Shown here: positions 1,908-64,000 of the stretch, piece by piece | Numbering within the stretch: position 1 is the first letter of the stretch | Layout of the letters: the number at the start of each line of letters is the position of its first letter | NCBI GenBank assembly: GCA_019973155.2 | Contig: BPQB01000031.1 | Span: forward strand, 310,001-374,000 | Length of the DNA: 64,000 bases | Direction of reading: 5' to 3' | Source: Phanerochaete sordida | Taxonomy: Eukaryota; Basidiomycota; Agaricomycetes; Polyporales; Phanerochaetaceae | Made by a program: the position numbers and the translations under genes | The notes under the pieces: generated by a model | Told to the model about the DNA's origin: nothing | The model's database searches: none | Seen by the model: the letters and a program-made list of their open reading frames with translations, nothing else

Positions 1908-3755
1908 ATGCTCGCGCTTTGGCACAAGCTCTTCCCAGGCGACTTTTCCCAGGGCCCGTCGGCGCCGCCATCACGGGACGAAATGCAAGATCGTGTCTCT
2001 CAGGTGCCTAATCTATGGAAGGAGCTCATGCACGAGCTGTACGCCGACGACTTAGACCCCTACTCTATATGGGCACCTGCGACGACCCTCACAGAGGCCG
2101 TGAAATCTGCGCCCGAGGCGGCCTGGCGCACGGCTTTGACATCAGGCCTCAGGACTTGTCTTCGCCTTGGAGCAGCTGATCCGTAGCAGATATTTGTGTG
2201 GCTTTACGCAAGAGCAGCTTGTTTCAGCTCAAGATTCTAGAAAAGTGGTATGTCTCTTATTCATGGATATGTTGGGAGTGATTTAGCTGTCTTGTTCGTC
2301 GCAGGGGCGCTGCGCCCTGATGCTAGACTTGTTCGTGGCATGCGCCGGCCGCGTACTCGCAAGCGAACAACACGGCGAAGTCGCAATACTACTTGACATG
2401 CTCCAGGGTACGATTGTGGGGGTCTTCACCAAACTATGGGACGTCAGGGATCCCTTCCTCATAACGCAGCCCGAAAACTCTGCCAGCAATCCCAATAATC
2501 CCCCTGGTTTGCTGAATTATCTTTATGGTCTGCATGTTACACTCCATAATCTCGGGCATCTCGTCACGCAGACCTTGAGAAAGCACAGGTGCGTGCATAC
2601 TTCTCATCAGGTACACTGTCAATGATCCATATCCTCTAGAGATATCGATTTCATAGATTCCCATATACCTCACGTCTCCCTCGTCACCTGGCTGCATAGC
2701 CCCGTTTCCAGAATCCGTGCGACTGCCCTTTCGACTGTAGGAATGCTCCACGATCCGAGCCATCCGTCGCGGGACCACTTGTGGATCGAATTTTTCTGTT
2801 CCGCCGACCTTGGCTACGCCGGAGACGTGCAGATAGCCCAGGGCATCATACGGGACCTTGCCGATGAAACGGTTGTCGACGATAGCCTGGCTGACGTCTT
2901 GATCCTCATGGGAGAGTGGAAGAATATGTACGCTGGTGCTCGCGATTCTCTGCCTCTGGAGCCTCGGCTCTCCCCGTACTGCATGGCCGCTGTCCGCCGT
3001 CAGTTGTGCCAAGGAATAAGCACGGAACCCAGAGCATCGATCGCCATGGTCGGTGTCGCTTTCAAGAACCTGAAGTGTGTCCGCAGCCCGTGACTGCTAC
3101 TGCCTCGAGATCGCTCATGTTGCTGTAGGGCCGGCTCTCTCGCCTCCAGCAGGCAGTGCTTCGACTTTCTCGGCCTGTTCTCCCTATATTTAAGACTACA
3201 CATGCACTTGCACAACGACGCCACACCCCGTACGTCCGTGCTGCCCCCACCCCTATAATCGCACTGACACACTAGCACCGCGCAGCGGTGCTCAACAGCT
3301 ACATCCACTGGTTTATCCAGCAGCTCAAACAGCTCGACAAAGACAACCGCCCGAAGTCCGCCGCGCTGCGCAGGCACACGCTCGAGGAATGGCAGGTCGT
3401 CGACGGCGAGATCGCGCGGCGGCAGCTCGCCCACAAAAACGACGAGTGGCGCCGCGTCGCGCGGGCGTGGCAGGTCGCGCGAACACACCTGCTGCCGGAG
3501 TCAGGCGAGCCGCATTGGACGCCCTTCGGTGCGTTGGAGCGCTGCGCATAGGAGGAGTGCCTCTGCAGCAGGCACAAGCCCGCGCATCGCATGCGCCTTT
3601 GCAAAGGCTGCGAGCTAGTCGTGTACTGCGGCGAGCGGTGTCAGAGGAGGTGCGTACTAGAAACCATGGTCGGCGTGCTTGCGATGCTGACACGAAAACG
3701 TGTGCATAGCGATTGGGAAGAACATCGGCTGTGCTGCCGCAGAGCGGTGCGGTGA
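1908..3755 (+). pseudogene. MYND-1: broken member of the solenoid/MYND family (MYND-7/8 type)
   Basis: The six-exon family structure can be followed from the ATG (MLALWHKLFPGDF) to the stop at 3753-3755, but the frame is broken twice. In exon 1 the frame changes between about 2140 and 2165: the part before encodes APEAAWRTAL and the part after encodes YLCGFTQEQLVSAQ in another frame. In exon 5 the conserved Trp of the zinc finger (CAWEEC in its relative) is TAG at 3549-3551. Downstream of the stop the finger is otherwise complete (CSRHKPAHRMRLCKGC, YCGERCQRR), and exon 6 gives the short form DWEEHRLCC also found in MYND-8. A product ending at either lesion would lack the finger, so this is most likely a recent pseudogene. 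Confidence 0.85.
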
Positions 3756-3884
3756 AGCTGGCGTGGCGCTTGCTATTCCAAAGTATCACAGCTTGCGCTG
3801 GAATATATCGCTTCAGAAGTGTTGCTTTGTGCTTTGCCAGATGACCCCGCGTCGAACCAGGGTCGTCGTCGATCCTTTGTTCTC

Positions 3885-3896
3885 GCTTACCTAAGC
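3885..3896. promoter_or_regulatory. Palindrome GCTTACCTAAGC upstream of MYND-2
   Basis: Perfect family palindrome, 192 bases before the MYND-2 ATG at 4089. The rest of the 3756-4088 spacer holds only this leader. Confidence 0.75.
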
Positions 3897-4088
3897 ATGC
3901 TGGACCCAGGTTTGCTCCCAGACGCTGATGCATCCGCTCGTGCTTCAACTCCCAGGTGGTGCCACTGCTGCCTTTGTGCGTCGTGCGAGGCGACACCCAA
4001 CCTTCCAGTAAGTGTTCTCGGCACCTCGCTCCCTGCCTCGTCTCATGGTTGTCGTAGGAGCAAGGCCCGCTGCGTCTAAATAGTCGCA

Positions 4089-5948
4089 ATGCTCGAACAT
4101 TGGTTCGAGCTCTTCCCAGACGCCGATTCTATCCTTGCGCTCAGAGGCCTGCCCGGTGATGAAATGGAAGAGCGGATCCGCCAGCTTCCGACGTCGTGGA
4201 CATGCCTCCTACACGAGATATGCACTGCAGACACTCAGTGTCCCGCCGAAGAGGGCACAATCTTCACGCTATTTCGAGTGCTCGGACGCGTCGTAGAACT
4301 CGCTCCTGAAGACGCGTGGTGTGCTGCATGGAACGCTAGATTTCTCCCGGTCCTCGCGGAGCTGATGGATGCCGACTTCGTCTTTGGCTACTCTCAATGG
4401 GCACTCGTATCGAAGGGCCATTTGAAAACGGCGAGCTTTTCTTCTTCTCGCTTGCTCCTGCAGCTGATATTATCCTCGTCCTATTTAAGGAGCGCATCAC
4501 CTGCATACTCCAGCTGTTTTTGACCTGCGCTAAGCGAGTGGTCACAGATGCTCGCGCACCGGAAGTGACGGCGCTGCTCGACATCCTTCAAGGCACAATC
4601 CTCGGAGTCTTTGGAAAATTATGGGATATCAGAGCCAACTTCCTGACAGGCGAGTACCTGCACGACCCCAATGTCTTGTACGATAATTCGTCAGATCCAT
4701 ACATCATGATGGATGAGTTGTACGACATCCTCAACACTCTGGGCTACTTCATCGCAGAGACGCTCATGAAGCACAGGTATTCCGTTCAGCCACTGACATC
4801 AATACTGGTCGCTGACGCATATTGTTAGAACAATCAATCTCCTCGAAACTCGACTCCCTGCGGTCTTTCTCGTGATCTGGATCTACGCCGAAGACGCGCC
4901 CATCCGGTTCCAAGGCCTCGCCAACATGAGGCACGTCGTTCTCGCGGCCGACGTAAACTTCGATCCCTGGCCGCCTTTCCTCACGGAATCGGCCACAGGC
5001 TGCACATGCGACGCAATAATTACGATGACCATGGTACGGGATTTCGCAGACGAAAACCTCGTCGATGCACATTTGCGGGACCTCGTACAGTTCCTGTCGG
5101 TTTGGAGAGATGTCTGCGGCAGCAATGCAACTGTGCTGTCGTCACTCGAGCCCCGGCTTTCCCCCTCTTGTCTTGCAGCTGCGCGGCGTCAGCTTTGTCG
5201 AGGAAACGCATCAGATACCGCGGGCTTCATCTTCATAGCGACGACAATCTGCGACAACTTGAGGTCGGGCTACTTTGCTCTCAACATCCATGTCTCTCCT
5301 CGCTCATCCTGTCTAGCCAAGGATTCCAGATTTCTGGAACGCAGTGCTACGCATTCCTCGACCTGTTTTGCCATTATATCACCCTCTGTATGCAAAGGAA
5401 CAACGCACGCCCTCCAGGTACGCCCAGCACCGCTTGCGGACCATCATCGCTGATACGCAAATAGAGAACCTCATAAAATACGTGCAATGGTACGGGTCTC
5501 AGCTAGCCGACCAGAGAGACAGGCTCGCAGACGACAGCAGACCCAAGTCTCTCGTGCTGCGGCGGCACGCGCTCCAATCCTGGGCGTCTGTCGCCGACGA
5601 GCTGCGAATGCGGGATCTTCCACGTCGAGACCCTGCCTGGTATCCATTCGCGGAGTTGTGGATGTCAATCAAAAGACTCCTCCCGTCGCTGGCTCGGGAA
5701 CCGCCCTATGTTCCGTTTGCAGTGCTCGAACGCTGCGCCTGGGATCAGTGTCTCTGCAGCAGGCACAAGCCCGCGCACCGCATGCGCATCTGCAAGGGCT
5801 GCGAGCGGGTCGTGTACTGCGGGAAACGGTGTCAGAAAAGGTGCGTTGTTTTCCCTGAGGCGGGTGTCTAGCTCTGAAGTGACTCTGCGCGGCCAGCGAC
5901 TGGGAGAGTGGTGGGCATAGGGAACGCTGTCGCAGGGTGGGACAATGA
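4089..5948 (+). CDS. MYND-2: solenoid/MYND zinc-finger protein, 522 aa, intact
   Basis: I could place every exon: 4089-4406, 4490-4776, 4829-5263, 5317-5417, 5465-5840 and 5897-5948. They join in frame to 522 codons plus stop, with intron phases 0, 2, 2, 1, 2. This is the reference structure for the family. Exon 1 begins MLEHWFELFPDAD, a segment rich in spaced Trp. Exons 2 and 3 are helical and Leu-rich, with the family motifs LLDILQGTILGVFGKLWD and LAAARRQLCRG. Exon 4 is a short linker (GTQCYAFLDLFCHY). Exon 5 carries RPKSLVLRRH, then the MYND finger (CAWDQCLC, CKGCERVVYCGKRCQKR), and exon 6 closes it with DWESGGHRERC. MYND fingers usually mediate protein-protein contacts with proline-rich partners. 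No SET or other catalytic domain is visible. Target and pathway are unknown. Confidence 0.85.
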
Positions 5949-6366: not shown

Positions 6367-8238
6367 ATGCTCGAGCACTGGGCCGAGCTCTTCCCAGACA
6401 TATCGTTCTGCACACTGCGGGGCGACCCATTGCCCGACGACGTGATGCGAGAACGTCTTCTACGGGCACCCCGTTCCTGGGCTCAGCTTCTGCGCGAACT
6501 TTGCGTTGCCGCGTGCCCCGACGCCAAAGACAACCACCTCGGGATATTACTTGTCGACCTGACCAACGCCATCGGGAGGGCTTCTGATGACGTCTGGAAC
6601 GCGTCTTGGGAGGCCGGTATCCTGGTGGTGTGGGCGGAGATGATGCGCGATGGGTTTATCTGTGGTTTCACCCGAGATCAGCTCGTCTCGCCGTCACCAC
6701 ACAGCGATAGGAGATGGGTAGGCTTGCTTTCATTTTGCACGAGATATTAGGTGCTGATTTTTATCCGGTACTATGCATCCTACAGGCGCACATTCTTCGC
6801 ATGCTACACTTGTTTTTGGCATGTATCGGACAAGTGGCCCTCGTCGGCTATCCGCAGGCAGACGAACAATTACTGGGCATCCTTCAAGATACTGTCCTGG
6901 CAACTTATTCCAACCTTTGGGACATCAAAGACTCTCTCCGAATCGGAGAATCCCCAAGTGGTAGTCTCAGGGTTCCGCTGTCAGGCATTGCAACCTTACG
7001 GGTGGGCGATACCGATGATTTATATTATGCTTTAGGCCAGTTGGGCCGCCAGGCAGCTGCCATGCTTCAGAGACAGAGGCGAGTTCTCTGCACTGATTCA
7101 TACCGTCTCGCTAACGGCTTGGCATCATACAGGTCTCTGAAGCCCCTCGAGACTCGCATTCCGCACATCTTTCTCTTTATTTGGATTCGAGCTGCTTCGC
7201 CGAGCGTCCGGGCGCAGGCTCTCAACCACCTGAGTATTATAGACGACCCAGAGATCGATGTGTGGCCTCCCTTTCTTGCCGACGCGCTGAGCGGCTGCAT
7301 CGACGGGAAAGATGTCTTGGGCGCAATCAAACGGGATCTTGAGGACGAAGGCACCGTTGACACCGCTCTAAATGACGTGTTTCTCCTCTTCCTCGCGTGG
7401 CACACCTTCCGCGCCGATGCGAGGTTGGATTCGTCCGAGAGACAGATCATGCTGTGCTGTCTTGCGGCCGGTCGGCGGCAGCTATGCCGCGGCGACGAAG
7501 CGATGGGAGAGGAATCCACCGACGCAGCGCTGGAGACATTCGCACAAGGGCTGTAAGCTGTTGGTCGTTAATGGCCATTACCTCCAAGCCTTCTCACGTC
7601 CGTATCTTAGACAGCGCAGGATGGAAACCTCCCAGAGGCACCTCTTCGCTTTCCTCAATCTGCTCTGCCATTTCATCATGCTTCAGTTTCCAAAGAACGA
7701 GGAGTCTCCTCCGGGTACGTCTCTCGCCTACCAACACTGTCAAATCTCCTGACACCCCATTCAGCGGAAGTGAAGGAGCACATAGAGCGTATTCTCCCGC
7801 ATCTGGCCAGCATGTCCCGCGACAACCGCCCAAAGACGGTCGCGCTGCGGCGGCACACTCTGGCTGCCTGGCAATCCGTCGCGGACGAAGTGAGGCGTCG
7901 CCAGCTCCCGCGTCGGCACCCTGCCTGGCGAGCCTTCGCGCAGCTCTGGACTTCTGTCAAAGCGCTCCTTCCAGCGGCGCTTGAAGACGAGCAGTCGGCT
8001 CAATTCGGGATGCTGGAACGCTGCGCGTGGTCCGAGTGCCTCTGCAGTAGGTATAAGCCCGCGCACAAGATGCGGCTCTGCCAGGGCTGCGAACGCGCTG
8101 CGTACTGCGGGGAGCGCTGTCAAAGGAAGTAGGTGTCGAAGTTCTCTACGTTCGCATGCGATGCTGACCTGACCTTGGACTCGTAGCGACTGGGATAAAG
8201 GTGGCCACAGACAGCGCTGCTGCAGGGTAGCGCGATAA
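6367..8238 (+). CDS. MYND-3: solenoid/MYND zinc-finger protein, inverted near-copy of MYND-4
   Basis: Starts MLEHWAELFPDISF and ends DWDKGGHRQRCCRVAR. The zinc finger reads CAWSECLC, CQGCERAAYCGERCQRK. Exons 2-6 align almost residue for residue with MYND-4 on the opposite strand 20 kb away, and the leaders match as well. At the second intron the donor that is GT in MYND-4 is GC here (exon end QRQR). The 54-base intron is open in frame, so the protein stays readable whether it is spliced as a GC-AG intron or retained. All other introns have normal borders. It is the last family member before the housekeeping island. Function unknown; MYND fingers are known protein-interaction modules. Confidence 0.82.
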
Positions 8239-23688: not shown

Positions 23689-23830
23689 CCAGTGCTCCTC
23701 ATGCCCACCCTCCTCTCAGTCCCTGGGTATATGCACTCACATCTTCTGACCCCGCGATACCTGACACGCTCGCAGCCTTGGCAGAGCCGCAGCTTGTGCG
23801 CAGGGCGCAGTGCTCTTGCACACCGAGCCG
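23689..23830 (-). pseudogene. Scrap of a MYND zinc finger
   Basis: The minus strand still reads PAHKLRLCQGCERV, followed by a decayed YCGERCQRR (YRGVRR), a short intron-like gap, and an exon 6 relic in which the Trp of DWEEGGH is a stop and the last Cys is changed. It is the end of a MYND family gene stranded in the island about 4.3 kb from the nearest array member, with the protease relic starting directly next to it. Confidence 0.7.
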
Positions 23831-27489: not shown

Positions 27490-28023
27490 GGTGCGCGCGG
27501 GTGAAAAGCGAATGTGAAAGACTTGGTGTATTTTTATATTGTGCTTTGAGGTGCCTGTATTCTAGGTTCATGAGGTGTATACCTTGCCCTATACCACTGG
27601 GACTACCATGGACAGAGACCTCAGGCTGTGAGGCCGGGGATGCTGTAGCAGCGCGAACTCGTCGCTGCCAGTCGTCTGCAGCACCGTGGCGTCTGTAGTC
27701 ATGGTATGCGCAGGCCGGCGTTCGTGTCGTTCAAGGTCTTCTTTGGAACCCTCGACGCGCGCATATTGTCGTCCCTCAGGCACATGTAGGCCGACCACCG
27801 GCCGCGCAGCTAGCCTCTGCAGCGCGCCACGCGACGTGATGGTTGGCCATATCTACCGCCCTGACTGAGATGTTGAACCTCGAGATATCACGCCTGGGCA
27901 GAAACTTCGAAGGAATCGAAGGAGTACTGAGTCATATGTCGGTATCGTATGTGTGTTCGCACTGAATCAACGCTGATTACTTCGTTCTTCTTGCAACTCC
28001 AGTATTATAGCACGACGCTCACA
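27490..28023. other. Spacer between glycerol kinase and MYND-4
   Basis: The first 160 or so bases are duplicated with the kinase fragment near 395-590. No gene seen in the remainder. The two genes are convergent, so this holds both 3' ends. Confidence 0.5.
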
Positions 28024-44288: not shown

Positions 44289-46158
44289 TTATGGCGTCAA
44301 CCTCAAGCAGCTCTGTCTGTGCTCGCCCTCGGTCCAGTCTCTAGGCACGCGCTTTCGTGTAAGCACTACGCGCAGGACAAGCTACCCACCACGCACCGTT
44401 TCTGACAGTCCCTCCCGCAATACGCGACGAGCCCGCAGCCTGCACACACGCGCATCCGGTGTGCCGGCGCGGCGACGCTGCAGAGACACGCAGACCATCC
44501 ACAGCGCACGAGTGGCGCGAATGCGCCGACGCTCGACACGCCGGGCTCCGGCTCGACGAGGCGGCGCACGGTTTCGCACTTGCGCACGAACGTGCGCCAG
44601 TCGGTGTCGCGCTGGGCAACGCGCCGGCGCGCGAGCTCGTCCGTGAGAGTGAGCCATGCGCTGTACACGCGCTGGCGCAGCGCGACGGTCTTCGGCCGCA
44701 CACAGGGGGTGTGTGCGCGTAGCTTCTTCAGGATCCAGTCCAGGTAACCGTTCAGTATCTCTGCGAGACGCTTTAGTGTTGCGCACTGTGTGCGGCCGAA
44801 GGAAACTCACCTGGTGTCCGCCGCTCCGGCAGCTCAAGGCAGGCCATAGTATATTTGCAGAATAGGTCAAGCAATCCGTAGCATTGTCTGGGGGAGAGAG
44901 CCGGCTCTCCTTTGCTGGAAAAGGATGTCAGGAGAGAATCACGTAGATAATATATGAGGGCATACTTCAGGCTCATAAGTGCTGCCGTCATGACTTCCAG
45001 AAACCCCTCTACGCCTGTATGACGTCCTCTGCATAACTGGCGTCGCGCAACACCTATGCAGTATCCAGCAAGTTTGGGCTCCCAAGGGACTGCGGCGCCG
45101 AGCAGCCGTCTTTCTTGCCATACAGAGAGAAGGTACAGAGTAGTTGACAACTGTTTGTCGACAACGGATTCGTTCTCAAGATCCCGCAATATTGCATGGG
45201 TAAAGGCGCGCTCGGTGACGTCGCCTGGCGATGATGGCAAAGTGCTGAAAAGCTGGCTCCAGACGCTGGAAGGAGAGGCCTGGGCTCCGATGATGCGTTC
45301 CAAATGGGACAATGTGCCTGAGCGCACGGACGCATCCGAGTTGTAGATCCAATTCAGAAGGAACATATGCGGGATGTACGACTCAACCAGCTGTATTGCT
45401 CTGTTACCACTCAGAGTATTAATGAGATCGACAGGCATCGCTGCAGAGTACAACGTACCTATGATGGGCTCTCATCGCCTCCAAAATACAGCGCCCCGAT
45501 GCTGTCAGAATATTCAGCAGCACATCCACCCCATTGTGGGTCAGATACGCGGCAAAGCTAGTGTTGCCAGAGGTAGACTCGCGCAGGCCTGCCTCTCCTA
45601 CCAGGAAAGGATCTCGGATGTCCCAAAGCTTGACGTAGACTCCGATGATAGTATCTTCGAAGACATCCAGCATTTGCGCGACCTCTTCTGGGCTGTCATC
45701 GTGGATGATGCGTTCGACACATGCGAAGAACAACTCCATGATGCTTATTGTGTGGACTCGCTGGTACCGAGAGATCAGATTGGGCACCTTCGCAACAAAA
45801 TCGACCGATCACCCACCGCACCTCGCGCGCCTTCTGGCGTAATCAGTTGTGCACGGGAATACCCGCACACGAAGCCATCGCCGAGCGACGCCACCAGGCA
45901 GGGGACGAGGCCTGCGGCACATGCCTCGCGCCGAACCGCGCGAGGCGCCTCGCGGACGGCCTCGGACAGCGCGGCAAATCGCTTCCATGTGAGCTCGGCG
46001 TCGCGGTCGTCGCGATTGCGGATCTCGCACACTTCGCGCGCGAGGTGCGGCCAGGTCCCGGGGAAGCTGTGCAGACGCGCCAGCACGGCATCGCGCGATA
46101 GCCCATCCCATCGGTAGGGAGAGTCGTCGGGGAAGATGTGTTTCCACTGCACGAGCAT
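44289..46158 (-). CDS. MYND-11: solenoid/MYND zinc-finger protein of the PYRWDGL type, pair of MYND-15
   Basis: ATG of MLVQWKHIFPDDSPYRWDG to DWTEGEHRQSCLRLTP. Exon 2: FACVERIIHDDSPEEVAQ and KLWDIRDPFLVGE. Exon 3: ESYIPHMFLLNWIYN and IGVARRQLCRG. Exon 5: RPKTVALRQRVYSAWLTL and a divergent finger: CGWSACLCSVAAPAHRMR then CAGCGLVAYCGRDCQKR. The basic HK of most members is replaced by AA, and KGCE by AGCG. All ligand positions are kept, so the domain should fold, but its surface differs. MYND-15 and the partial MYND-20 are its relatives. All exons open. Confidence 0.83.
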
Positions 46159-46633: not shown

Positions 46634-48514
46634 CTACTGCCTCACTACGCGACAGCGCTCTCGATGCCCACCCAGCTCCCAATCGCTAGAACGTAACCCT
46701 GCATCAGCATCGCACGCGCACCACCAGACGCACTACGCACCTCTTCTGGCACCGCTTGCCACAATACACAACCTGCCCGCATCCCCTGCACGAGCGCAGC
46801 TTGTGCGCGGGCTTGTGCAGGCTGCAGAAACATTCGCGCCACGCGCACCGCTCGAACACGCCGAAGGGCGCGCGGACCACGTCGCCCGCGGCAGGGGCAG
46901 GCCAGAGGTGCCCCCGGAGTACGAACCAGAGCTGCGCGAACTGCATCCACGCAGTACTCCGGTGCGCGAGCCGCCGGCCCTGCATCGCGTCGGTGACGGC
47001 CTGCCACGCCGCCTGCGTGTGTGCGCGCAGGGCGACGGTCTTGGGACGGTGGTCCTTCGCGCGGTGGTGAATGCGCTTGAGGAGCCAATCCATGTGTTTC
47101 TCGAATTTCGCTGGGTAGAGTGTCAGGAGGATTGAGCGAAGGGGAGGGTGGTGTGCGTACGTGGAGGTCGTGCGTCGTTCTGTTGGATGGAGAGCGAGAC
47201 GTACTGGCAAAGGAGGTCCACGAGATCGTAATATTGCCTTCCGTGGACCTCAAGTTTCAACCTGTATCAATGGAATGAGACTCTCTTCAGAGAATAGCAT
47301 ATATCGATGTTCCGATGACCTTACCCCAAGTTGTCGAAGACACCTGACATGATATCGATGAATGTCTCGGGGTCTGTGTTGTCCCCTCGGCATAGCTGAC
47401 GACGGGCGGCCGCTAGACAGTAAGGAACGAGCCTTTTCTCCTCACCAAGATTCATCCCAGCATTGACGAACAGGTCGTTCCATATCTCGAGGAAAGAGAC
47501 CACGTTTGCGAGCGCGAGGCCAGTGACCTCTTCATTGGCAAGGTCGCGGATGATGGCGTCCGTGACATGCTGATCGCTGGTCGAGCCGCCGAGCGCGTCC
47601 GTCAGGAAATCAGGGAACATATCCGTCACTTCATCCGCAGAGTCGTAGACTGCGCGGATCATGCAGGCGAGACCCAGCGATCGAGTGCCTGTGTAAGGCC
47701 CGTGGATCCAGATAACCAGAAGGACGTCGGGAATGTGACTCTTGAGAATGTCGATCGATCTGAGACCGTTCTTATCACCAGGATGACGGAATATGAGGAT
47801 AGCTGGTATTTACCTGTGCTCCTGGAGCGTTTTGATTGTGAGATAACCCAGCTCACGCAGAGTGTTGTACGTGGTGTCCAGCTTGTCTTCCCACAGTCCG
47901 CAAAGCCCAGGGCGTAGCTCCATGACCTCGCCATCGGAAGCGGTGTATTCTGCAATGAGAAAAGAGTCTTTGGTGTCCCACAGTGCGGCGAACACTTTGA
48001 TAACCGTGTCTTGCAGGACGTCCAACAGTTGAGCGAGTTCCTGAGGACGATCGTCGGCGACCACCCGTTTGACGCACGCCAGAAGTAAGCTAATCATGAG
48101 GTAAACACGATCCTGAAAGTGAAATAACACATAAGATCAGTGGTAAGCATATTGTGCATAAAAGGAACGACTCGCAAAAGAATCGTCGCGATCCCTCGCG
48201 ACAAGCTGCTCGCGCGTGAACCCGCACAAAAAGCAGCGGCCGATCGCTTCTGCCAACACGAGAAGGAAACCCGCCTCCCAGGCTTTGGACCAAGCGGTTC
48301 CAGGGGCATCGCGGACGGCGTCTTCGAAGTCTTGGAACCAGCCCCAAGTATCGTCATTGTCATTGTCCTGAGTCGCGCAAAGCTCGCGTAGCAGCTGGGG
48401 CCAGGAGGCTGAGACCTGGTAGAGGCGTTCAACGAAAGGCTGCTCGGGAACAGACGTGTCCTTTGACGCGTCGGACGCGTCGTCAGGGAAGAGTTCGAGC
48501 CAGTGCTTGAGCAT
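46634..48514 (-). CDS. MYND-12: solenoid/MYND zinc-finger protein, pair of MYND-9
   Basis: ATG of MLKHWLELFPDDASDAS to DWELGGHRERCRVVRQ. Nearly the same as MYND-9 in every exon: LLACVKRVVADDRPQEL, LQDTVIKVFAALWDTKDSF, LAAARRQLCRGDNTDPE, YYDLVDLLCQYVSL, KHMDWLLKRIHHRAKDH. The finger is CAWRECFCSLHKPAHKLR, CRGCGQVVYCGKRCQKR, with Leu to Phe after the first half. No lesions. Leads the second copy of the three-gene block. Confidence 0.84.
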
Positions 48515-48885: not shown

Positions 48886-50753
48886 TCATGTAGGTCTCTG
48901 GCGACACCGAGCCTTATGCTCGCCCTTTTCCCAGTCGCTGGTAAGACGGCGTCGCTTCAGAGGTATACATACTTCAAGGTACCAGCGCCCCACCTTCTCT
49001 GGCATCTCTCGCCGCAGTACACAACCTGCTCACAGCGCTTACACATGCGCATGCGGTGCGCAGGTTCATGCCTGCTGCACAAGCATTCCGCCCACGCGCA
49101 CCGCTTGAGCGGCCGAAACGCAAAATGCATGTCTTCTACCACTAGCGTGCACTCAGGGCCAATGAGCTCGCGCGCGTCGACCCACAACCGCGCGAATCGC
49201 GCCCAATCTGCGCCCTCGCGACATGCGAGGGTCTCCGCGACGGCGCGCCACGCCTCGAGCGTGTGCGTGCGCATCGCAGCGCGCTGTCTGCTCAGCGAGG
49301 CGGGCGGCGCGGAGAGCGTGCGCAGAGCCCACTGAAGTATGCTGGTGAGAAGTGCTGCGGGCGATGTCAGCACGGGGTGGCACGGTGAGCGTGGCGGAGG
49401 ACGTGCCGGGGACGACCGGTACGGCGTCCGGGTCGTCCTGCATACGGCGCAGGGCGTACTCCGCTAAGAGTTCGAGAAGCACGAGGACCTGACGCGCGGA
49501 GATCGGCAGGCCGGCGCTGAGAGAGTGCGGGTTAGAAGGGGCAAGGGGATAGGACCGGGCAGGCATACACACCAGAGGTTGCTGAAGATCAGGGATGCGA
49601 TGTTCGCGGTTTCAAAGCTGGCGTCGCATACGCAGAGGCACAGCTGGCGGCGCATCGCAGCTAAGCAATATGAGGCCAGTCGGATGTCTGGGGGAAGTAC
49701 TACATCGGTCAGAATGCACGCATTCTGCCATAGGGATAGCACGATCAGGACGTCGCTCAGATGCTTGTTTACGACGGCTTCATCTGCGAGGTCCCGGAGC
49801 AGAGCGGTGATGATCTCGTCGTCGTTACCGAAGCAGTCATCCACTGCCGCTGGGCGGAAGACTGCGGGCCAGGGGTCGGTTTCCTCTGTGTACGGAAATC
49901 CAGCTAGCTGTCCTAGGTTAGAGAGGGCGTCGAAGCGGAGGAACTGATCCGAGCTCCAAATCCATATGAGCAGAAATATTTGAGGAATGCAGGAGTCGGC
50001 GGGTACAATTGTTCTGCAAATATAAATGCCGTCAGTGGGTATTATCGTGAGGCCCGAAGCAGGGGGAGATGGCTAGGAAATACCCATGCTGGTGCAGTAA
50101 ATCTGCAGTCAAGCGCCCCAGAGCATTGAGTGCATTGAATACGGTGTCCGCCTCGTAGAACGGCTCTGTTGAGTCGCCACCCTCGATGAACTCGCTGAGG
50201 AGAAATTCGCCTCTGGTGTCCCAGAGCTTGACGAAGGTGTCTAAAGCGGTACTTTGCAGAAGTTGAAGTAGCTGCGCGATCTCGTCCGGGCGTCCACCAT
50301 CGCTCGCTCGTTTGGCACATATAGCAAGCATGCTGAGCACGTTGTAGACGTGCTCCTGAGTGTGCGGATTGGCGCGTCAAATATTGGCTGTGCAACGTGT
50401 AGAACACTAACCATCCAATTCATGCCATCACCCGAGACGAGCTGCTCTCGGGCAAGCCCGCAGAGAAACTCGCTGCCGACCGCCTCTGCCGATACAACCA
50501 TGAGACCTGTCTGCCACGCCGTGCGCCATAATGCATCGGGGGCGTCTTGGATGGCATCCTCGAGCGCCAAGAACAGCGTGCATACAAGCTCGGAGTCCTC
50601 GTCTTCGTCGGGTATACACACCTCGCGCAAGAGTCGCGGCCAAAGCGCAGGCCTCCGACGAATCCGGGCACGTATGACATGTGTTGGCAATCGCCACAAT
50701 GCGCGCGGAGAGCTGTCTGGCTCCGGGAAGAGTTTGAGCCAGTGCATTAGCAT
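48886..50753 (-). CDS. MYND-13: solenoid/MYND zinc-finger protein, pair of MYND-10
   Basis: ATG of MLMHWLKLFPEPDSS to DWEKGEHKARCRQRPT. Exon 2: CAKRASDGGRPDEIAQLL. Exon 3: IPQIFLLIWIWS, LLRDLADEAVVNKHLSDV. The usual RRQLCRG is RRQLCLC. Linker: ARQVLVLLELLAEYAL. Exon 5 lacks RPKT (SRQRAAMRTHTLEAW). Finger: CAWAECLCSRHEPAHRMR, CKRCEQVVYCGERCQRR, with Gly to Arg in the second CxxC. All exons open. Confidence 0.83.
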
Positions 50754-51171: not shown

Positions 51172-51936
51172 ACAGCTATGTCTACGCCCACCGCTCTCCC
51201 AGTCACTACAAGCGTGGACATTCATCAGCATTCTGCAAACACAAGAAGATATACCACGCACCTTCTCTGGCAGCGTTCGCCGCAGTACACAACGCGCCCG
51301 CACCTCTTTCACATACCCATATTATGCGCAGACTTGTACCTGCTGCACAGACACTTCTCCCGCTCGCGAAAGCGTTCGTAAGTCTATTGTTGATAAATGG
51401 GTCCCTGACCTCCCACAGCTTGGTGAAGACGCCGTCGACCGTGTTTTGTAGGACGTCCAGCAGCTGCGCAGCCTCGTCTGAACGCTTTTCTTCACACGCC
51501 CGCAAGGCAGATGTCAAGAGCGCGCCCAGAGCATTGCTAACGTGCTCCTGAACTGGAACAGCTGTTGCATTAGTCAGGAGGCCATGCACGCCAAGGGAAG
51601 ACCTACACTTCTGCTCACGGCCTCCGGCGAAGCGAGCCCTTCGCGGAAGGACCTGCACCTGCTGTCAGAAAGCTCTGCCGAGATCAGCGCGAACCCTGCC
51701 TACCACTATAGGCGCCATACAGCTTCCGGCGTGCTGCACGCCGTGTGCTCGAGCGCGACGGACAGCAGTCCTGCAAGGGCGCTGTCGTCGTCGTCCGTCG
51801 GCGCTGAGCCCACGCAGCAGTTTCGGCCAAGATGCAGGATGGCGGAAGAGGACCGAGTATACGTCGTCGCTCGACAGCCACCGCAGGGCGCAGGGCGAGC
51901 TCTCTGGCTCTGGGAAGATCTCGAGCCAGCGCGTAG
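51172..51936 (-). pseudogene. MYND-14: MYND-10/13-type gene with large internal deletion
   Basis: The exon 1 remnant reads RWLEIFPEPESSPCALRW without a start codon, then shifts frame (SALAGLLSVALEHTA). Exon 2 reads SDEAAQLLDVLQNTVDGVFTKLWEVRDPFI and then jumps directly to the zinc finger (REREKCLC, SAHN in place of PAHR, then TGA in place of Cys, KRCGRVVYCGERCQ). Everything from late exon 2 to mid exon 5, roughly 1 kb, is missing. Exon 6 has DWESGGRRHSC, with the zinc-ligand His changed to Arg. It lies where the repeated block has an extra copy. Confidence 0.88.
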
Positions 51937-52253: not shown

Positions 52254-54136
52254 CTACCGCGAGAGTTTCTGACAGCGGTGTCTGTGCCCGCCCTCGTTCC
52301 AGTCACTAGACACACGCCTTTGTGTCAGCACCACACGCTCGCGAAGCAGCCCGCCACGCACCGCTCCTGGCATTCCCTTCCGCAGTACGCGACGGACCCG
52401 CAGCCCGTACACACGCGCATCCGGTGCGCAGGCGCGGCCACGCTGCAGAGACATGCGGCCCAGGCACAGCGCGCGAGTGGCGCGAACGCGCCGACGCCCG
52501 ATGCGCCAGGCTCCGGCTCGATGAGGCGGCGAACAGTCTCGCAGCGCCGCACGAACGCGCGCCAGTCTGCGTCACGCTGCGCTAGTCCGCGGTGCGCAAG
52601 CTCGTCCGTGAGCGCAACCCATGCGCTGTGTGCGTGCAGGCGCAGCGCGACGGTCCTGGGCCGCGCGTCGGCTATGCGCGCACGCATCTGCTCGAGGATC
52701 CAGCCCAGGTAGCCGTTGAGCATCTCTGTAGGACGCGTCAGTGCTGCGCTGCTGGCACGGCTAGAGGAGACATGCCTGGTGTCCGGCCCAAGGGTCGCTC
52801 GAGCCGAGCCGCGGCAAACCTGCAGAACAATTCCAGAAGGCCGTAACATTGTTTGAGGGAAAGGGTCGCTCCTAGGCTGCACGTAACAGTCAGTGATGCC
52901 CATGGTGTGTACAGCGAACATCGGCGTACACAATGCTCATGAGGACTGCTTCCATGATGTCGGGGAATCTTTCCGAGTCAGTATGGTCGCCTCTGCATAG
53001 CTGGCGCCGTGCAGCTCCAATGCAATATCCAGCGAGCTTTGGCTCTGAAAAGACCGCGCCGTCGAGGAGCCAGTTTTCTTGCCATACGTTGAGAATGGAT
53101 AGCGTGTTCGATAGATGCTTGTCGACCACACATTCGTCCGCCAAATCCCGTAGTATCGCCCCTGTGACGACGGACTCGGTGATGATACCTGGCTGTGATA
53201 GCAAGGAGGCGAAGAGCTGCTTCCAAGTCGCGGGGCGCGCTGTGTTCTCTTCATTGACGAGCCCCAGATGGGACAGTGCATGGGCGCGCGTAAGTCGCTC
53301 CAAGCCATAGAGCCAAGCGAGAAAGAATATATGTGCGACGCGCGACTCGACCAGCTGGATCGCTCTATGGACACCTGGGCCATCAGTCAAATTCACAGGT
53401 AATGCAGCATAGCTGGATCAGGCGCACCTATGATCCCTCAACTTTTCCGCAATCCAGCGGCCCAGCGTTGCCAGGTTATTCAGCATCAGATCCATCCTAG
53501 AGCGCGCTATTTTTTCCACGAAATTGGTGTTTTCAGGGGCGTCTTTACGCTCACTCAGCTCTCCAATCAGGAAAGGATACCTGATGTCCCAAAGCTTGAT
53601 ATACACTCCGATAAGAGTATCTTGGAAGATGTCGAGCATCTGTTCGACCTCTTCACGGTCGTCGTCGTGGAAAACGCGTGCAACACACGCCAAGAAAGCT
53701 TCCACCATGTAGATTATATGTTCTCGCTGTCACCCCAGAATAACATAAGCCATTAAGACACCAAAGTGGACAGCCCACGTACTGCGTCGCGCGGGGAGAT
53801 ATCTGGGGTTCCAGGCCAGATCAGCTCCGCACTGGTGTACCCGCCCACTAAGTTACTGCCCAGCGATCCCGCGAGGCAGCGCACAAGACCCGCCGCCCAC
53901 GCCTCGTGCCAGACTTCCCGCGGTGCAGTGCGCACGACCTCTTTGAGCGTGACAAACCGCTGCCACATGAGCTCGGCGTCGTGGCGGGTGCGGCCGCGGA
54001 CCTCGCACGCCTCGAGCGCGAGGTCCGGCCAGGCACCGGGGAAGCGGTACAGGCGTTCTTGCACGGCATCTTTGGATAGCTCTTCCCATCTGTAGGGAGA
54101 CTCGTCGGGGAAGATGTGATGCCAGCGCGTGAGCAT
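52254..54136 (-). CDS. MYND-15: solenoid/MYND zinc-finger protein of the PYRWDGL type, pair of MYND-11
   Basis: ATG of MLTRWHHIFPDESPYRWEE to DWNEGGHRHRCQKLSR. Exon 2: VEAFLACVARVFHDDDREE, KLWDIRYPFLIGE. Exon 3: ESRVAHIFFLAWLYG, LRDLADECVVDKHLSNTL, IGAARRQLCRG. Exon 5: RPRTVALRLHAHSAWVAL. Finger: CAWAACLCSVAAPAHRMR, CTGCGSVAYCGRECQER, with the same AA replacement as MYND-11. All exons open. Divergent from MYND-16; the two share one promoter palindrome. Confidence 0.83.
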
Positions 54137-54551: not shown

Positions 54552-56401
54552 ATGCTCGAGCATTGGCTCGAGCTCTTTCCAGACATCGGCTCGCTCGCCG
54601 CGCTCGAATGCCTTCCAATGGAGGACGTCGAAGGACGCGTGCACCAACATCCTACCTCCTGGCCGCGCCTTCTGCGGGAGCTTTGCGCTGCAGACGACGA
54701 AGATCTGTGCGGCGTATTAGGCATGATGTACGCCGCGCTCTGTGACGCCATGCATAGCGCCTCGGAAGCAGTTTGGTGTTCAGCATGGGACGCTGGACTT
54801 CTTCCTTGTCTCGAGGGGCTTATGAGCGACGAGTTTATCTGCGGCTCCAGCCGAGAGCTGTTGAGTTCGGCGCCACATAGGAGAACAGTTGTGAGGGTCT
54901 CCTTCTCGCCTGCGGAGCAGCTATCTCTGATGTAACGCGAAGGAGCGCATCAGCGACTTGCTGAATATATTCACAGTATGCGCTTCTCGCGTATTCAGGG
55001 AGGCTCGTGAGCAAGAAGTCACGCAGATGCTCGGCGTTCTCCAAGGCACGGTCGTCAGACTATACACAAGACTGTGGACAGTCCGCGATCCATTTCTGCT
55101 CGGCAAAAGTGACGACTTCAACGAAGACAGCGCAGCCTCGTATCAGGGCGCAGCGGGAATGGACGATGAGCTCGATGAGCTGTACGTTGCCCTCAATCTG
55201 CTGGGCAGGCTCACGGTAGACAGCCTAAGGGAGCATAGGTTCGCATTATAGGCCATATCGAGCTGCAGTGTTGGCTCATACAAGCACCCGCAGGACTATC
55301 AAGCTGCTGCAGTCTCGAATACCTCACGTCGTCTTTTTCACTTGGATCCACAGCGCAGACTCCCGCACACGAGCCGAGGCCCTCGCGAACGTTGGAGTAC
55401 TCAGTCTCGCCGACAGCACAGACCGCGACCCGTGGCGCGAGTTTTTCGGCGATGTGCTCGGCGGCGGTCTCCGCCACGAACACGTCACGGACGCGATCGT
55501 ACGGGACCTAGGGGACAGCGAATCTGTCGACGAGAGTCTGACGAGCGTGCTGTGCTTCCTGTCCGTCTGGCACAAATTCAACATCAGCGCTAGGCGAAGC
55601 CTGTCGTCCAACGCGCTGCTCGCGCCGTACTGCCTCGCAGCCATGCGCCGCCAGCTGTGCCGTGGTATCGACGAGGACCCCAAGGTGCATGTGAGCGTGG
55701 CCTCGGAAGTCTTCATGAACCTGTAGTGCGTTCGAATCGTTCCCGACGTACGCGCACCCCGCCAACTCCTGCTGATTTTTGCCCCTAGTTTCGGGCTAGA
55801 AGTCCGCGGACGCCAATTCTACGCCTTCATCGACGCACTCTGCGTCTACATCACGCTCTCGATCCAACAAGAACCTGCCGGCCCTCCCAGTGAGACCTCC
55901 CCTCCTATCCCGGCCGCGCAGCCAGACTGACTCCATCCCAGCGAACCTCACAACAATCCTCACGTGGGCACTGCGCCAACACCGCGCCACTGACGACCGG
56001 CCAAAGACCGTCGCGCTAAGACATGCCTCGCTCGCCGCGTGGAACGCTGTCGCGGAGGCGATGGCGCAGCGCTCGCTCGCGCGGCGCCCCGCGTGGTCCA
56101 GCGTCGTGCGGCTCTGGGGCACGCTCCGCGCGCGCATGCTCCCTGCGCCGACTGTTCCGCGCGTGCTGGCGTGGGGGTCGGAGCGCTGTGCTTGGGAGGC
56201 GTGCCTGTGTAGTAGGCATAAGCCCGCGCATCGCATGCGAGTGTGCAAGGGGTGCGGGTGGGTAGCGTATTGCGGGGAGAGGTGTCAGAAGAGGTGCGTG
56301 CTGAGTTTTGTCGTGTGTATATGGTGTTGAGGAGGCGGTGTGGTTCCAGGGACTGGGAGGAAGGTGGGCACCGGACGCGATGTCGCAGACGACCGGCTTG
56401 A
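54552..56401 (+). CDS. MYND-16: solenoid/MYND zinc-finger protein, relative of MYND-18/19
   Basis: ATG of MLEHWLELFPDIGSLAAL to DWEEGGHRTRCRRRPA. Exon 2: ERISDLLNIFTVCASRVF, RLWTVRDPFLLGK. Exon 3: QSRIPHVVFFTWIHSA, VRDLGDSESVDESLTSV, LAAMRRQLCRG, ending MNL plus a split Tyr codon. Linker: VRGRQFYAFIDALCVYI. Exon 5: RPKTVALRHASLAAWNAV, finger CAWEACLC, CKGCGWVAYCGERCQKR. Six exons, all open; borders normal. Confidence 0.84.
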
Positions 56402-56749: not shown

Positions 56750-58609
56750 ATGCCACTCACCCATTGGCTTGCACTCTTCCCTGAGTCGGAAGGCTGCCCT
56801 CAGGGGTTACCCCGACTGTCGACTGAAGATATATACACCACTCTCTGCCAGCATCCCGCAACCTGGCCGCAGCTGCTGCGCGAGGTTTGCATCGCCAGCG
56901 ACACCGAAGTCTGCGTCAGATTCACTCTATTCGCCGCGCTCGAGGACGCTGTCGGGAGGGCGCCGCAGAATGTGTGGCGTGCTGCATGGCTAGCAGGCTT
57001 CGTACGAGTATCGGCGCACATAGTCGACGACGCGTTCCTGTGCGGATTTGACCGAGGAAAATTCAATGCTCCGGGCACCACGGTCATGATAGTACGTCTT
57101 ATATCTGTGTGGAGGTCTACCTGGCGATTGACCCTGCAATACCGCGCATGCAGAGGCATATCGCCTTGATGTCCGGTATATTTCTGGCATGCACATCCCG
57201 AATTTGCGACAGTCAGCAACCAGAAGAGGTCTCCGAGCTGCTGGACGTCGTGCAAGATACCGTCTATGGCATCTTTACGAAGCTATGGGAGATAAAGGAC
57301 CCATTTCTCATCAGCCAGTATACCGACACTGAGGACAGCAACATGAAAGAGCCGCGCTTTGAGCTCGACAACCTGCTCGATATACTGAGTACGTTGGGGT
57401 ACCTGATTGCTGACCAGCTGAAGGAGTACAGGTATGTAACAGCCGCCATCTGAGGAGCCTCACGCGTACGAACATTAATGACATCTTTGACTCTGACCTG
57501 CAGAACGTTCGCGTTACACGAATCCCGCATTCCACACATTTTATTGCTGGTCTGGATCTGGAGCTCACAGCAGCCAGTCCGCTCGCATGCTCTCACCAAC
57601 CTATGGCAGCTGATGACGATCAAGGACTTCGATGACGATCTGTGGCCCGCGATCCTTCGATCTGCGGTAGTGGGTTGCTGTGCCGAAGACGAGGTCATGG
57701 CTGCTATACTCCGAGATCTCGCGGATGAAGCCATCTTGGACCATGACTTGGTCGAAGTCACAGTCCTGTTGCTGACATGGCAGAATTCGCGCCTGCAATT
57801 TGGGCAGTCTTTGGTCACAGACCGCCGGCTAGCGCCGTACTGTCTGGCGGCGGTTCGTCGTCAACTGTGCCGAGGAGGTAACCCCCTTGCGGCAAAAGGA
57901 GGCTTCTATAGCGTAGCAATGGGAGTCTTCTCAGTTCTGATGTCTGTCTACTTTCCGTGTACGCATTACTCTCATGCTGACGTTCGCCTTTTAGACTAGG
58001 TCATGAGATCCCAAGCCGCCTGTGCTACGGATTTTTCGACATATTCTGCCACTACATCCTCCTTCAAATAAGCGAAGACAGTCTAAGCCTCACTAACATC
58101 AGTGAGTCACTCCATGTCCTACCTGCAGCGCACTGATGCCACACGCAGAGACTCTCACCGCCATCCTCGCCTGGGGAGTCCAGCAGCTCCGCACGCTTCG
58201 CGCCTCTGACGCACGCCCCAAGACCACAGTGATGCGCGCGCACACGCTTGTGGCATGGCAGACCGTCGCTAATGCGCTCGCGCACGGAGATATTGCGTGT
58301 CAGCGGTTTGCGCGGGCATGGGACGTGGCGCGCATACACCTCGAACCTGCGCGTGCCACGGAGGAGCTGAGGGAGCCCGTGTTTGGGGTGCTCGAGCGGT
58401 GCGCGTGGGCCAGGTGTCTTTGCAGCAGACACCCGCCTGCGCACAAGATGCGGCTGTGCAAAGGCTGTGAGATCGCCGTGTATTGTGGGGAGAGGTGCCA
58501 GAAGAGGTATTTCATCGTCGCCTTTCTGTGCATCCAATACTGACACATGAGGTCGTGCCTTCATTGCAGTGACTGGAAAGCGGGTGAGCACAGCAGACGC
58601 TGCCGTTGA
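56750..58609 (+). CDS. MYND-17: solenoid/MYND zinc-finger protein, distant MYND-10/13 relative
   Basis: ATG of MPLTHWLALFPESEGCPQG to DWKAGEHSRRCR; the C-terminus is the shortest of the family. Exon 2: RHIALMSGIFLACTSRIC, VQDTVYGIFTKLWEIKDPF. Exon 3: ESRIPHILLLVWIWSS, LRDLADEAILDHDLVEV, LAAVRRQLCRG. Linker: RLCYGFFDIFCHYIL. Exon 5: RPKTTVMRAHTLVAWQTV, finger CAWARCLCSRHPPAHKMR, CKGCEIAVYCGERCQKR. All exons open. Convergent with MYND-18. Confidence 0.83.
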
Positions 58610-59069: not shown

Positions 59070-60945
59070 TCAGGCAGCTCGCCCGAGACACCGCGTTCTG
59101 TGCCCACCATCCTCCCAATCTCTACATGGCGAGAGTTACATGAGTACCATGCATACTCCACACAGTCAGCCACGTACCTCTCTAGGCACCGCGTCCCACA
59201 GTAGAAGGCCTGTTCACACCCTTTGCACATCCGCATGCGGTGCGCAGGCTTATGCCTGCTGCAGAGGCACTCGCGCCACGCGCAGCGTTCGAACGGCGCG
59301 AACGGCGCGTAGACGGGGGCAGGGGGCGCCGGGAGCATCTTCGTGCGGATCGCGGACCAGAGCCGTACGAGACCAGACCACTGAGGGTGTTTCTCCAGCT
59401 GGTGGCGAGCCATCGCATCTGCGGCAGCCTGCCACGCGGTGAGTGAAGCGCGCCGCAGCGCGACTGTCTTTGGCCGGCTGTCTTTGGCGCGGTTGGCAAT
59501 GTGCTGGAGGTACCAGTCGGTGATTTTCATGATGTTGGCTGGGGGCAGCGTTACCGGGTCAATATCGAAGTGGAGAATTTGGGGGCGTACCATCAAGGCC
59601 GGTGGTGTTGTCCTCAATCGAAAACATGATCCAGTCGCAGAGCGAGTCGAAAAATGCGTAGCATTGGCGTCCGCGTATCTCTAGCCCAGTGCTATGATAT
59701 ACGAGTAAATGAGAATTCGTGGCGAGAGCAGTACACAATCCAAGATAGAAATTGAACGCACTAGAAGTTCCTGAAGACCCATGGCGCTACGCTTTGCAGA
59801 AATAGGCCCAGTTCCTGACGATTACCGCGACATTGCTGACGACGCATAGCCGCAAGGCAATAAGCGGCAAGGAGCGTGTTGAACGGCAGGTTCTTCTCCA
59901 CATTATTGGTGAAATCATGCCGGACCGACAGAAAGCCTAGCACGTTCTTGAGTTCTCTGTCGACTGTGTCTTCGTCTGCAAGGTCCCGCACAATCGCGTT
60001 TGCAATGTGCTCGTTGCTGAGACAACCGCCAAGCGCGCCCGTAAAGAAGTCCATCCACGGATCGCACTCTGTGTCGTCGACATATTCTACGATCCACAAA
60101 CTCACAAGGGCACGGGAGCGTGTCTCCGGGTTCACGCCGTAGACCCAGTTAAGGAGAATGATATGGGGAAAACGAGTTTCAAGGCTGTTAAATTTCCTGC
60201 AGGTGCTTCTCTCAGCAGAGATATGTTACATAACGGGTGAGATATACCTGTCACTGTCCTTGAGGGTCTCGGCTGCGAGCTTGGCCAGCGCGCTGAGCGT
60301 TAAGTGCAGGATGTCAAGCATATTTGCGGCAACGCTTGAGGAGGACGTGGCCATGTCTCCTTCCGAGTCTGCGCACTTTCCAGTTAGAAAAGAGTCTCGG
60401 ATGCTCCACAGCCTCGCATAGAGGCCTATGACTGTATCCTGCATGACATCCAGCACCTGTGCAACTTCCTGCTCACGAGCATCTCGTATAGCACGGTCAG
60501 CGCACACCGTGAACAGGCTCAGTGTACGGCAAATGCTATACTTGGGACGTGCCGAGGGATAGATGAATCGCTGCCACCGCACGCATATGGAAAATGCACT
60601 CACAATTGTCGGTGCGGCTCGACTGGAGACCAATAGCTTCCGGCTGAATCCGCAAACAAAGTTGTCGCTCATCAGTTGTTTGAAGGTACTGAGGAGGCCA
60701 GTATTCCACCCGGATCGCCAAATTGCTTCGGGGGCGCGACGCAGAGCCGTGCCAAATTCAGAGTGCAGTGTTTGTATCTAGCCGACGTCCGCATCGGCGT
60801 GGTCTGGGGTGGATAGCTCGCATATGAGTTGCGTCCAGAGCTCAGGGTGTCGCAGGATTCGTTCTCCGATATAGTTTTCCGATAGTTTCGCTTGCTCGGC
60901 GAGCGAGGTGCAGTCTGGGAACAGCTTCGACCAGTGCTCGAACAT
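59070..60945 (-). pseudogene. MYND-18: family member with a stop in exon 1
   Basis: ATG of MFEHWSKLFPDCTSL. After PDHADADVG the frame meets TAG at 60778-60780 and then continues IQTLHSEFGTALRRAPEAIW in the same frame, so the stop is a point change in an otherwise open gene. Exons 2-6 are open: LFTVCADRAIRDAREQEVAQ, ETRFPHIILLNWVYG, LAAMRRQQCRG, RGRQCYAFFDSLCDWI, RPKTVALRRASLTAWQAA, finger CAWRECLC, CKGCEQAFYCGTRC, then LER where nearly all others have the near-invariant QKR/QRR, DWEDGGHRTRC. Probably a young pseudogene; a downstream ATG could give an N-terminally shortened product. Confidence 0.75.
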
Positions 60946-61524: not shown

Positions 61525-63383
61525 TCAAGTGTGTTGTCTATCACATCGCGTCCTGTGTCCGCCCTCCTCCCAGTCCCTAAATGTATAATGCCGCATCAGC
61601 ATCCTATACACGCGAAGAAACCTAGAACATACTTCTTCTGACATCTCTCCCCGCAGTAGAACACTCGTTCGCACCCCTTGCACATCCGCATGCGATGCGC
61701 AGGTTTATGCCTGCTGCAGAGGCACTCGTGCCACGCGCACCGCTCGAACGGCGCAAACGGCGTGCATGTCGGCTGCGTGGGTGCCGGGAGCATGCTCGCG
61801 CGGAGCATAGGCCATAGCCGCGCGACGCCGGCCCACGCGGGACGCTGCGCGAGCCGGTGGTGCACAATCGCGTCCGCGACGGCCTGCCATGCCGCGAGCG
61901 AGGCATGCCGCAGCGCGACGGTCTTCGGCCGGTCGTCTGTGGAGCGGTGGGGGATCTGGAGGAAGGCCCAGTCGAGATGTTCGTCAATGTTGGCTGGGCA
62001 GAGTCAGCTGGGTCACGTTTCGTGAGGGTGAGTGCTCACCCGGTGGTCGAGCGGCGCCATCTTGTATTGAGGCCATGATGTGGTCGCAAATAGCGTCGAC
62101 GAGGGCGTAGCACTGGCGGCCGCGTATTTCTAACCCAAGCCTGTGGTCGCGATATCAGCCAAGGTTTTCTGGATACCGAGTCATCGTTCTTGAGCCGAAC
62201 GTACCACATATTCATGAACACTTCTGACGCCACTCTCCAGAGCATAACAGAGTGCTCATCGCTGCCGCGGCACTGCTGGCGGCGCATCGCCGCGAGGCAG
62301 TTTGGCGCTAGCAGTGTATAGGAAGAGAGACTCCGCCCTCCGTCGAGGACAAATTCATGCCAGATGGACAAGAAACATAGAACGTTCTTCAGGCTACTGT
62401 CGACGGTATCGCCCGCCGCGAGGTCCCGCGCTATTGCGTTTGTGACGTCTTCGTCGCTGAGACAGCCGCCGACCACGCCGGAGAGGAACTTCTTCCAGAG
62501 TTTTCGGCTTGCGGGGCCGGACCAATTGATCATTGCAATGTTCGACAGCCCTTTAGACTGTGTGCGCGGATCTGTGCTGTAAACCCAAGTGAAGAGTGCG
62601 ACATGGGGAATCCGAGACCGGAGGAGCTCGGGGATTTCCCTGGAAAACCTAGCATCAGAAAAAATCTTCTCTACAATGAGCAGAACGTACATAGCACCCT
62701 TTAGGTTTTCCACCGTAAGCCTGCCTAGAGAGTTGAGAACGTCATGCAGTTCACAGAGTTCACGTTCGTCTACTGTCACGTTTGTGTATGGCACCGCGCT
62801 GTTTTCCACAAATATAGAACGCCGCCCGAGTAGGAAGGAGTCGCGAACAGTCCAGAACCTTGCGTAGAGTCCGACAACGGTATCCAGTAGTGCAGTGAGT
62901 ATCTGCCCGACCTCCCAAGTCCGATCATCTTTGAACACGCGGGTGGCACATATCGAAAAGAGGTTCAGTAAATTAGCGACACGCTCCTTCAACCGCGAAA
63001 ACATACGTTAGCAATCATTTCTCCCTGGATTAAAATAAATTCCTCACTGTTTTTCTTCCGTCATTTCTGGAAACGAGCTGTTTTCTGCTAAAGCCGCAAC
63101 AGTACTTGTCGTTCATCATCTCTTCGAGAACCTTGAGAAGCCCGGCATCCCAGGCAGAGTACCAGATGTCCTGTGAAGCGCAATGCATAGCATTGCAGAG
63201 TACAGCGTACAGCGTGCGTACAGCGCCGTCCGGATCCTTGTCTGTGGTGCATAGCTCCCGTGCGAGGGACGGCCAGGAAGCTGGAAGTCGGTGCAGTTGT
63301 TCCTTGATTTCTTCCTCGGGCAGGCTTGCCACAGCGTCGAGCGAGTCGCAGCGCGGAAAGAGCTGGTGCCAGTAATCGAGCAT
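61525..63383 (-). CDS. MYND-19: solenoid/MYND zinc-finger protein
   Basis: ATG of MLDYWHQLFPRCDSL to DWEEGGHRTRCDRQHT. Exon 2: ERVANLLNLFSICATRVF, FWTVRDSFLLGR. The second intron is unusual: the EHR end of exon 2 is replaced by LKGA, and a 42-base in-frame gap with GT-AG ends can be removed or kept. Exon 3: RSRIPHVALFTWVYST, ARDLAAGDTVDSSLKNV, LAAMRRQQCRG. Exon 5: RPKTVALRHASLAAWQAV, finger CAWHECLC, CKGCERVFYCGERCQKK. No stop seen. Close to MYND-18 and MYND-16. Confidence 0.8.
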
Positions 63384-63631
63384 TCTAGCCAGTCAAAACG
63401 ACCGCGTGGGGCGCGTCTGGAACTAGTCGAAGTGTTGCGTCGCTTTGGCGAGTGTCACTACTCGCTAGCAAAGCGAGGTCGGGCGAGGCAGATAGAGTAA
63501 AAATCTGGTATAGCAGAATCGTCGTCGCTTCAGCAATACTTCCAAAACATGTCTGAAGCTCACCAACGCCAGGACGGTCACATACGCGAACGACGCTGAG
63601 ACGGGAACTATTCAGACGCGCCAGCGTGGCC

Positions 63632-63643
63632 GCTTACGTAAGC
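63632..63643. promoter_or_regulatory. Palindrome GCTTACGTAAGC shared by divergent MYND-19 and MYND-20
   Basis: Fully symmetric 12-mer between two diverging starts, 248 bases from MYND-19 and 170 from MYND-20. Confidence 0.75.
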
Positions 63644-63813
63644 TCCGCGCTTAAATTATCCCTGCAGAAGCCGTGCGCGTTGGTCGCGTCCAACACGATG
63701 CCGGAACTGTAAGCACTTCAGTTCGCCACATATACTTCGTTAGTCAAGTGCATACACCTCACTGCAATGATATAAACACTCTGCCTTTGTCTTCTAGGCC
63801 GTAAATGCTCCAA

Positions 63814-64000
63814 ATGCTCCTGCGATGGGATAACATCTTTCCCGACGGCTATCCATACCGATGGGATGGCCTATCCCAGGATGTTGTAGAAGGATGTCTG
63901 TGTCGCTTTTCAGAGGCATGGCCGCACCTCGCACGTGAGGTGTGCAAGCTCCGCGGCCGCGACCCCCACGACGCTGAGCTCACGTGGAGGCGGCCCACTT
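63814..64000 (+). CDS. MYND-20: start of a further family member (PYRWDGL type), cut by window end
   Basis: Reads MLLRWDNIFPDGYPYRWDG, then EAWPHLAREVCKLRGRD and DAELTW, open to the last base. It matches exon 1 of MYND-11 and MYND-15. An in-frame ATG three codons upstream (63805) is an alternative start; the family pattern favours 63814. The rest lies beyond the window. Confidence 0.8.
   Translation, partial: MLLRWDNIFPDGYPYRWDGLSQDVVEGCLCRFSEAWPHLAREVCKLRGRDPHDAELTWRRPT

Follow-up and report, generated by a model that had tools for sequence, protein, structure and literature searches.

A tandem array of six-exon genes in Phanerochaete sordida encoding MYND-finger proteins with a predicted alpha-solenoid

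Long rows of diverged MYND-finger genes raise the question of what their products do and how such a row arises. We address it here for a 64-kb stretch of the Phanerochaete sordida genome, contig C31:310001-374000 (the window below; coordinates are window relative), in an assembly of 40,844,352 bases and 222 contigs. Deposited P. sordida proteins identical to models from the window carry PsYK624 locus tags, and the genome of strain YK-624, a wild isolate, was assembled from short reads with SPAdes and has 17,108 predicted genes (PMC8530024). The window contains 18 near-complete copies of one six-exon gene, 14 intact and 4 broken, together with 3 remnants. The large tandem array described in a first-pass annotation of this DNA is confirmed, with these figures replacing its count of twenty loci. 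Each intact copy joins a variable N-terminal part, predicted to be a helical solenoid, to a conserved C-terminal MYND finger, and the reading that we favor, and consider fairly probable as a whole, is that the array encodes intracellular adaptor proteins.

Copies were found by homology searches of six-frame translations and then modeled with a splice-aware aligner, whose reference was a single copy in a first pass and a profile of the copies in the final one. Modeled with that profile, all 18 window copies have six exons, their intron phases being 0,2,2,1,2, which bears out the common structure proposed earlier. The final profile leans toward the common layout because it was built from the copies themselves; the first pass gave these phases in 15 of 18 copies, with c13, c17, and c18 deviating. 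Six exons with the same phases are also present in all 7 right-flank copies and in 5 of 9 distant loci. Profile scores range from 1369 to 1611 for the window copies versus −52 to 26 for 16 control stretches, 14 of them taken from the gene island described below and 2 antisense to copies. Among 21 deposited proteins, 20 correspond to the models, 11 of these 20 being identical across the entire model.

The array is not continuous, nor does it end at 64 kb. Between c03 and c04 (~8.2 to 28.0 kb) lies an island of 19.8 kb of other genes, including those for Nup85, a lysine methyltransferase, an aspartic protease, and a glycerol kinase. To the right of the window, 7 more intact copies and some fragments follow toward the contig end at position 94457; the final 3 kb before that end contain no telomere repeat. 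Neighboring copies are 336 to 591 bases apart, except at the island, in the gaps beside remnants, and between c10 and c11. An open frame over the six exons is kept in 21 of the 25 array copies. Protein queries against the genome matched the finger at no fewer than 56 loci on four contigs (38 on C31, 25 of which form the array, 11 on C16, 5 on C2, and 2 on C14), a lower bound summed from listings that omits three weaker hits to C30 and C32. The matches listed in protein searches were all from P. sordida (17/7,995, 2/7,997, and 13/235 candidates scored), from which restriction to this species cannot be concluded because the first step of the search is word based and one search missed known paralogues.

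The Trp-rich head noted earlier was recovered as Trp 5, 37, 75, and 79, which are invariant in an alignment of 8 proteins. Pfam has no family for the N-terminal ~460 residues. In AlphaFold models of two distant members, residues ~1 to 465 appear as one ARM/HEAT-type alpha-solenoid overall. The order of head, helical part, and MYND finger given in the first-pass annotation stands; its two helical segments and linker become a single continuous helical solenoid in the model. The N-terminal ~460 residues are accordingly described here as one all-helical ARM/HEAT-type solenoid at the level of prediction. Of repeat signatures, Pfam gave one HEAT match in 1 of 8 proteins (expectation value [E], 0.037) and an ARM match in none. 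Three weak NCBIfam matches, each in a single member, are taken as chance. The statement that no named family has this architecture is weakened: the N-terminal region is without a Pfam family, but the structural check proposed for it returned a predicted model resembling known ARM/HEAT-type solenoids, and the layout has parallels that are compared below.

The finger is far more constant than the rest of the protein. Pairwise identity among the 21 intact copies averages 0.69 for the finger versus 0.35 to 0.38 for each other part, and whole-protein pairwise identity has a median of 0.38 (range, 0.32 to 0.81). Eight Cys and two His residues are invariant in all 34 models, among them those of broken and of distant copies. 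In MYND fingers generally, zinc is bound by seven Cys and one His; the array finger exceeds this set by one residue of each kind, and its zinc ligands are putative. The zf-MYND family (PF01753) was matched by all 8 proteins at an E of ≤1 (best, 2e-6), a weak but consistent signal; c16 scored 20.3 bits, below the cut-off of 22.7, and precomputed PF01753 annotation is present in just 7 of the 21 deposited proteins. In sequence, the nearest solved structures for the finger are those of DEAF1 and of ETO-type fingers (E, 0.0038 to 0.035). By Pfam, none of the 8 proteins contains a SET domain, as had been stated for the array, and none contains a NACHT or NB-ARC domain or a DNA-binding domain. Membership in SMYD, which has the MYND finger in common with the array proteins but is defined by its SET domain, is rejected on this basis, as is membership in the NLR/STAND receptors, given the missing NACHT/NB-ARC domain.

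The array is a tandem birth-and-death family in which one six-exon design was copied locally, probably partly in blocks. This part of the earlier description is supported by the copies, the breakage, the remnants, the tree, and the order of clades. Strong support was obtained for 17 of the 31 inner branches of a tree built from 34 proteins. Read along the chromosome from c09 to c15 without remnant c14, the clades run B C D B C D, an order that is weak on its own because 6 of 90 label orders repeat in this way; in the right flank, C B A′ mirrors the A B C of c08 to c10 on the opposite strand. Both orders fit block duplication. Synonymous divergence (dS) of the presumed block pairs is unequal (0.46 for c09-c12, 0.91 for c10-c13, and 0.83 for c11-c15), so a single block event would need later conversion. 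Synonymous differences are lower in exons 5 and 6 than in exons 1 to 4 in 6 of 15 pairs (one-sided P < 0.02); in the other 9 the deficit is not significant, and in four of these it is reversed, most clearly in c08-d20 (P = 0.99). For 11 of 21 copies, each of the three gene parts has the same nearest copy. Judged from these sequences, gene conversion of the 3′ end is possible.

Selection was assessed by the pairwise NG86 ratio of nonsynonymous to synonymous divergence (dN/dS), which is 0.24 to 0.35 in the 14 closest pairs, with 0.73 as the highest finite value for any segment. These values indicate purifying selection in the closest pairs and give no sign of an arms race. The per-segment comparison of paralogs that had been proposed as a check on a recognition or conflict role thus detected no positive selection, within a method whose pairwise averages can mask single selected sites.

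Adaptors are the simplest reading because a conserved small interaction domain is carried on a variable solenoid and many copies are maintained. The variable solenoid would bind target proteins or peptides that differ among copies, and the near-constant finger would dock every copy on the same partner; the array would then be a repertoire whose input varies while its output is fixed. Were that partner, as it is for yeast Mub1, a ubiquitin ligase of the Ubr/Rad6 type, the copies would be substrate adaptors; this ligase is our leading candidate by analogy, a guess that we put forward tentatively. Somewhat more doubtful is a broader picture of a fungal modular receptor or adaptor repertoire in which variable ARM-type solenoids joined to a constant ten-Cys/His finger would spread by tandem and block duplication and follow an F-box- or NLR-like logic, possibly confined to Phanerochaete or to a wider white-rot group.

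The main rival, a minority view in our judgment but one with real weight, is that the proteins are transcriptional or developmental co-regulators whose finger recruits corepressors and whose copies act at different stages. The MYND fingers of ETO, BS69, and DEAF1 recruit corepressors, and it is to DEAF1 and ETO-type fingers that the array finger comes nearest among solved structures; the lack of a DNA-binding domain in all 8 proteins speaks against such a role. Ganoderma lucidum expresses 50 MYND genes, of which 13 are differentially expressed, 10 of these with their maximum in primordia or the fruiting body (PMC9386254), a pattern that suits developmental co-regulators, but these genes are not established as members of the solenoid-MYND family. 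A repertoire for recognition or conflict (non-self recognition or defense), the role first suggested for the array, is unlikely. Tandem copies, block duplication, pseudogenes, remnants, and strong divergence agree with it, whereas the purifying selection on the closest pairs and the absence of NACHT and NB-ARC domains from the 8 proteins examined do not, and no positive evidence for it emerged from our analysis. A published parallel lies in a Rhizoctonia solani subpopulation, where the only overrepresented Gene Ontology (GO) term among sweep genes is the MUB1-RAD6-UBR2 complex, reached via three MYND-finger genes (PMC13113206); we take this term as automatic annotation, not as function.

Less probable again is neutral tandem amplification, in which copies were kept by chance and most have little function. 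Broken genes make up 4 of the 18 window copies and stand beside three remnants, as this would have it, but the open frames kept in most array copies and the purifying selection on the closest pairs argue otherwise. The short-read assembly of a wild isolate might also have produced the array as an assembly or haplotype artifact, which we consider extremely improbable: the closest intact pair, with 81% protein identity and a dS of 0.46, is too distant for collapsed reads or alleles, and relatives lie on four contigs. The haplotype form of this explanation is rejected on that divergence. Transformation is reported as established for strain YK-624 (PMC8530024), so the function of the family is directly testable, be it, for example, in ubiquitin-ligase adaptation or in recognition.

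Left of the island, on the plus strand, are c01 (1908 to 3752; broken by a frameshift and a stop), c02 (4089 to 5945; intact, its model equal to deposited protein P0001 and its fold predicted), and c03 (6367 to 8235; intact, equal to P0003). Intron 2 of c03 (7079 to 7132) fits a GC-AG rather than a GT-AG pair, and P0003 is identical to that model. A finger fragment lies within the island on the minus strand (23739 to 23828). From c04 to c15 all copies are on the minus strand: c04 (28027 to 29884; intact, nearest copy c03), c05 (30265 to 32140; broken by a stop), c06 (32617 to 34467; broken by a frameshift), c07 (34851 to 36688; intact), c08 (37039 to 38877; intact, equal to P0018), c09 (39345 to 41227; clade B, intact, equal to P0005), c10 (41591 to 43471; clade C, intact, whole model contained in P0006), c11 (44295 to 46158; clade D, intact, whole model contained in P0009), c12 (46637 to 48514; clade B, intact, nearest copy c09), c13 (48895 to 50753; clade C, intact), remnant c14 (51264 to 51934; pieces of exons 1, 2, and 5), and c15 (52257 to 54136; clade D, intact, whole model contained in P0002). 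Remnant c14 looks mosaic, with its head nearest to c10 (72%) and its finger piece nearest to d20 (81% over 105 bases). On the plus strand follow c16 (54552 to 56392; intact) and c17 (56756 to 58606; intact), the model of the latter starting at the second profile position with an in-frame Met codon just upstream. The minus-strand copies c18 (59073 to 60945; broken by a stop) and c19 (61537 to 63383; intact) and a plus-strand head (exon 1) fragment (63814 to 63993; nearest copies c15 and c11) complete the window.

Some further duplications were seen around the array. A glycerol-kinase-type (FGGY) fragment adjoining c01 (462 to 1635, minus strand) has its counterpart in part of the glycerol kinase gene by c04 (26445 to 27615, plus strand), with 95.0% identity over 1179 aligned bases in inverted orientation; this inverted pair likely marks rearrangement breakpoints. 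Outside the solenoid-MYND exons, the flanks contain two duplications, one pairing −29998 to −28318 with −14877 to −13184 (81% over 1.7 kb) and the other pairing 76731 to 77717 with 82887 to 83878 (79% over 1.0 kb). On contig C2, loci L001 to L005 represent a second, different MYND family; the five frames looked at are intronless, have 337 to 373 codons, and resemble the array family in the finger only.

Among known systems, ARM/HEAT proteins such as APC, beta-catenin, Ric-8, importin alpha, and Vac8 share the fold predicted for two members here, a superhelical stack of helical repeats, but differ in sequence, with 4 to 11% identity in structure alignments. In Mub1/SamB and ZMYND10, too, a MYND finger at the C terminus follows a solenoid, and in yeasts Mub1 is a single gene. 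The array proteins are like Mub1/SamB in having a fungal MYND finger at the C terminus, behind an ARM-like region that is predicted in our case; the likeness is one of layout, and a single gene there contrasts with a large tandem family here. Mub1/SamB is termed an E3 ligase adaptor (PMC12505449; also PMC3567142 and PMC9434175), and Mub1 is the closest fungal parallel that we know of to the logic proposed for the array. No title on a solenoid-MYND architecture or on tandem fungal MYND arrays was found among the literature matches listed, in a search that subscription papers mostly lay beyond. Published counts of MYND genes in Agaricomycetes are already high: Table 3 of PMC4469406 gives 41 in its seven-Agaricomycetes column, taken as a mean, versus 1 to 26 in the other basidiomycetes that it lists, and PMC2644716 gives 25 MYND gene models for Moniliophthora perniciosa. 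These zf-MYND counts likewise point to numerous genes but are domain counts without architecture, and for one such expansion in mushroom-forming fungi the array now supplies an anatomy: a fixed gene structure, a predicted fold, and a distinctive finger.
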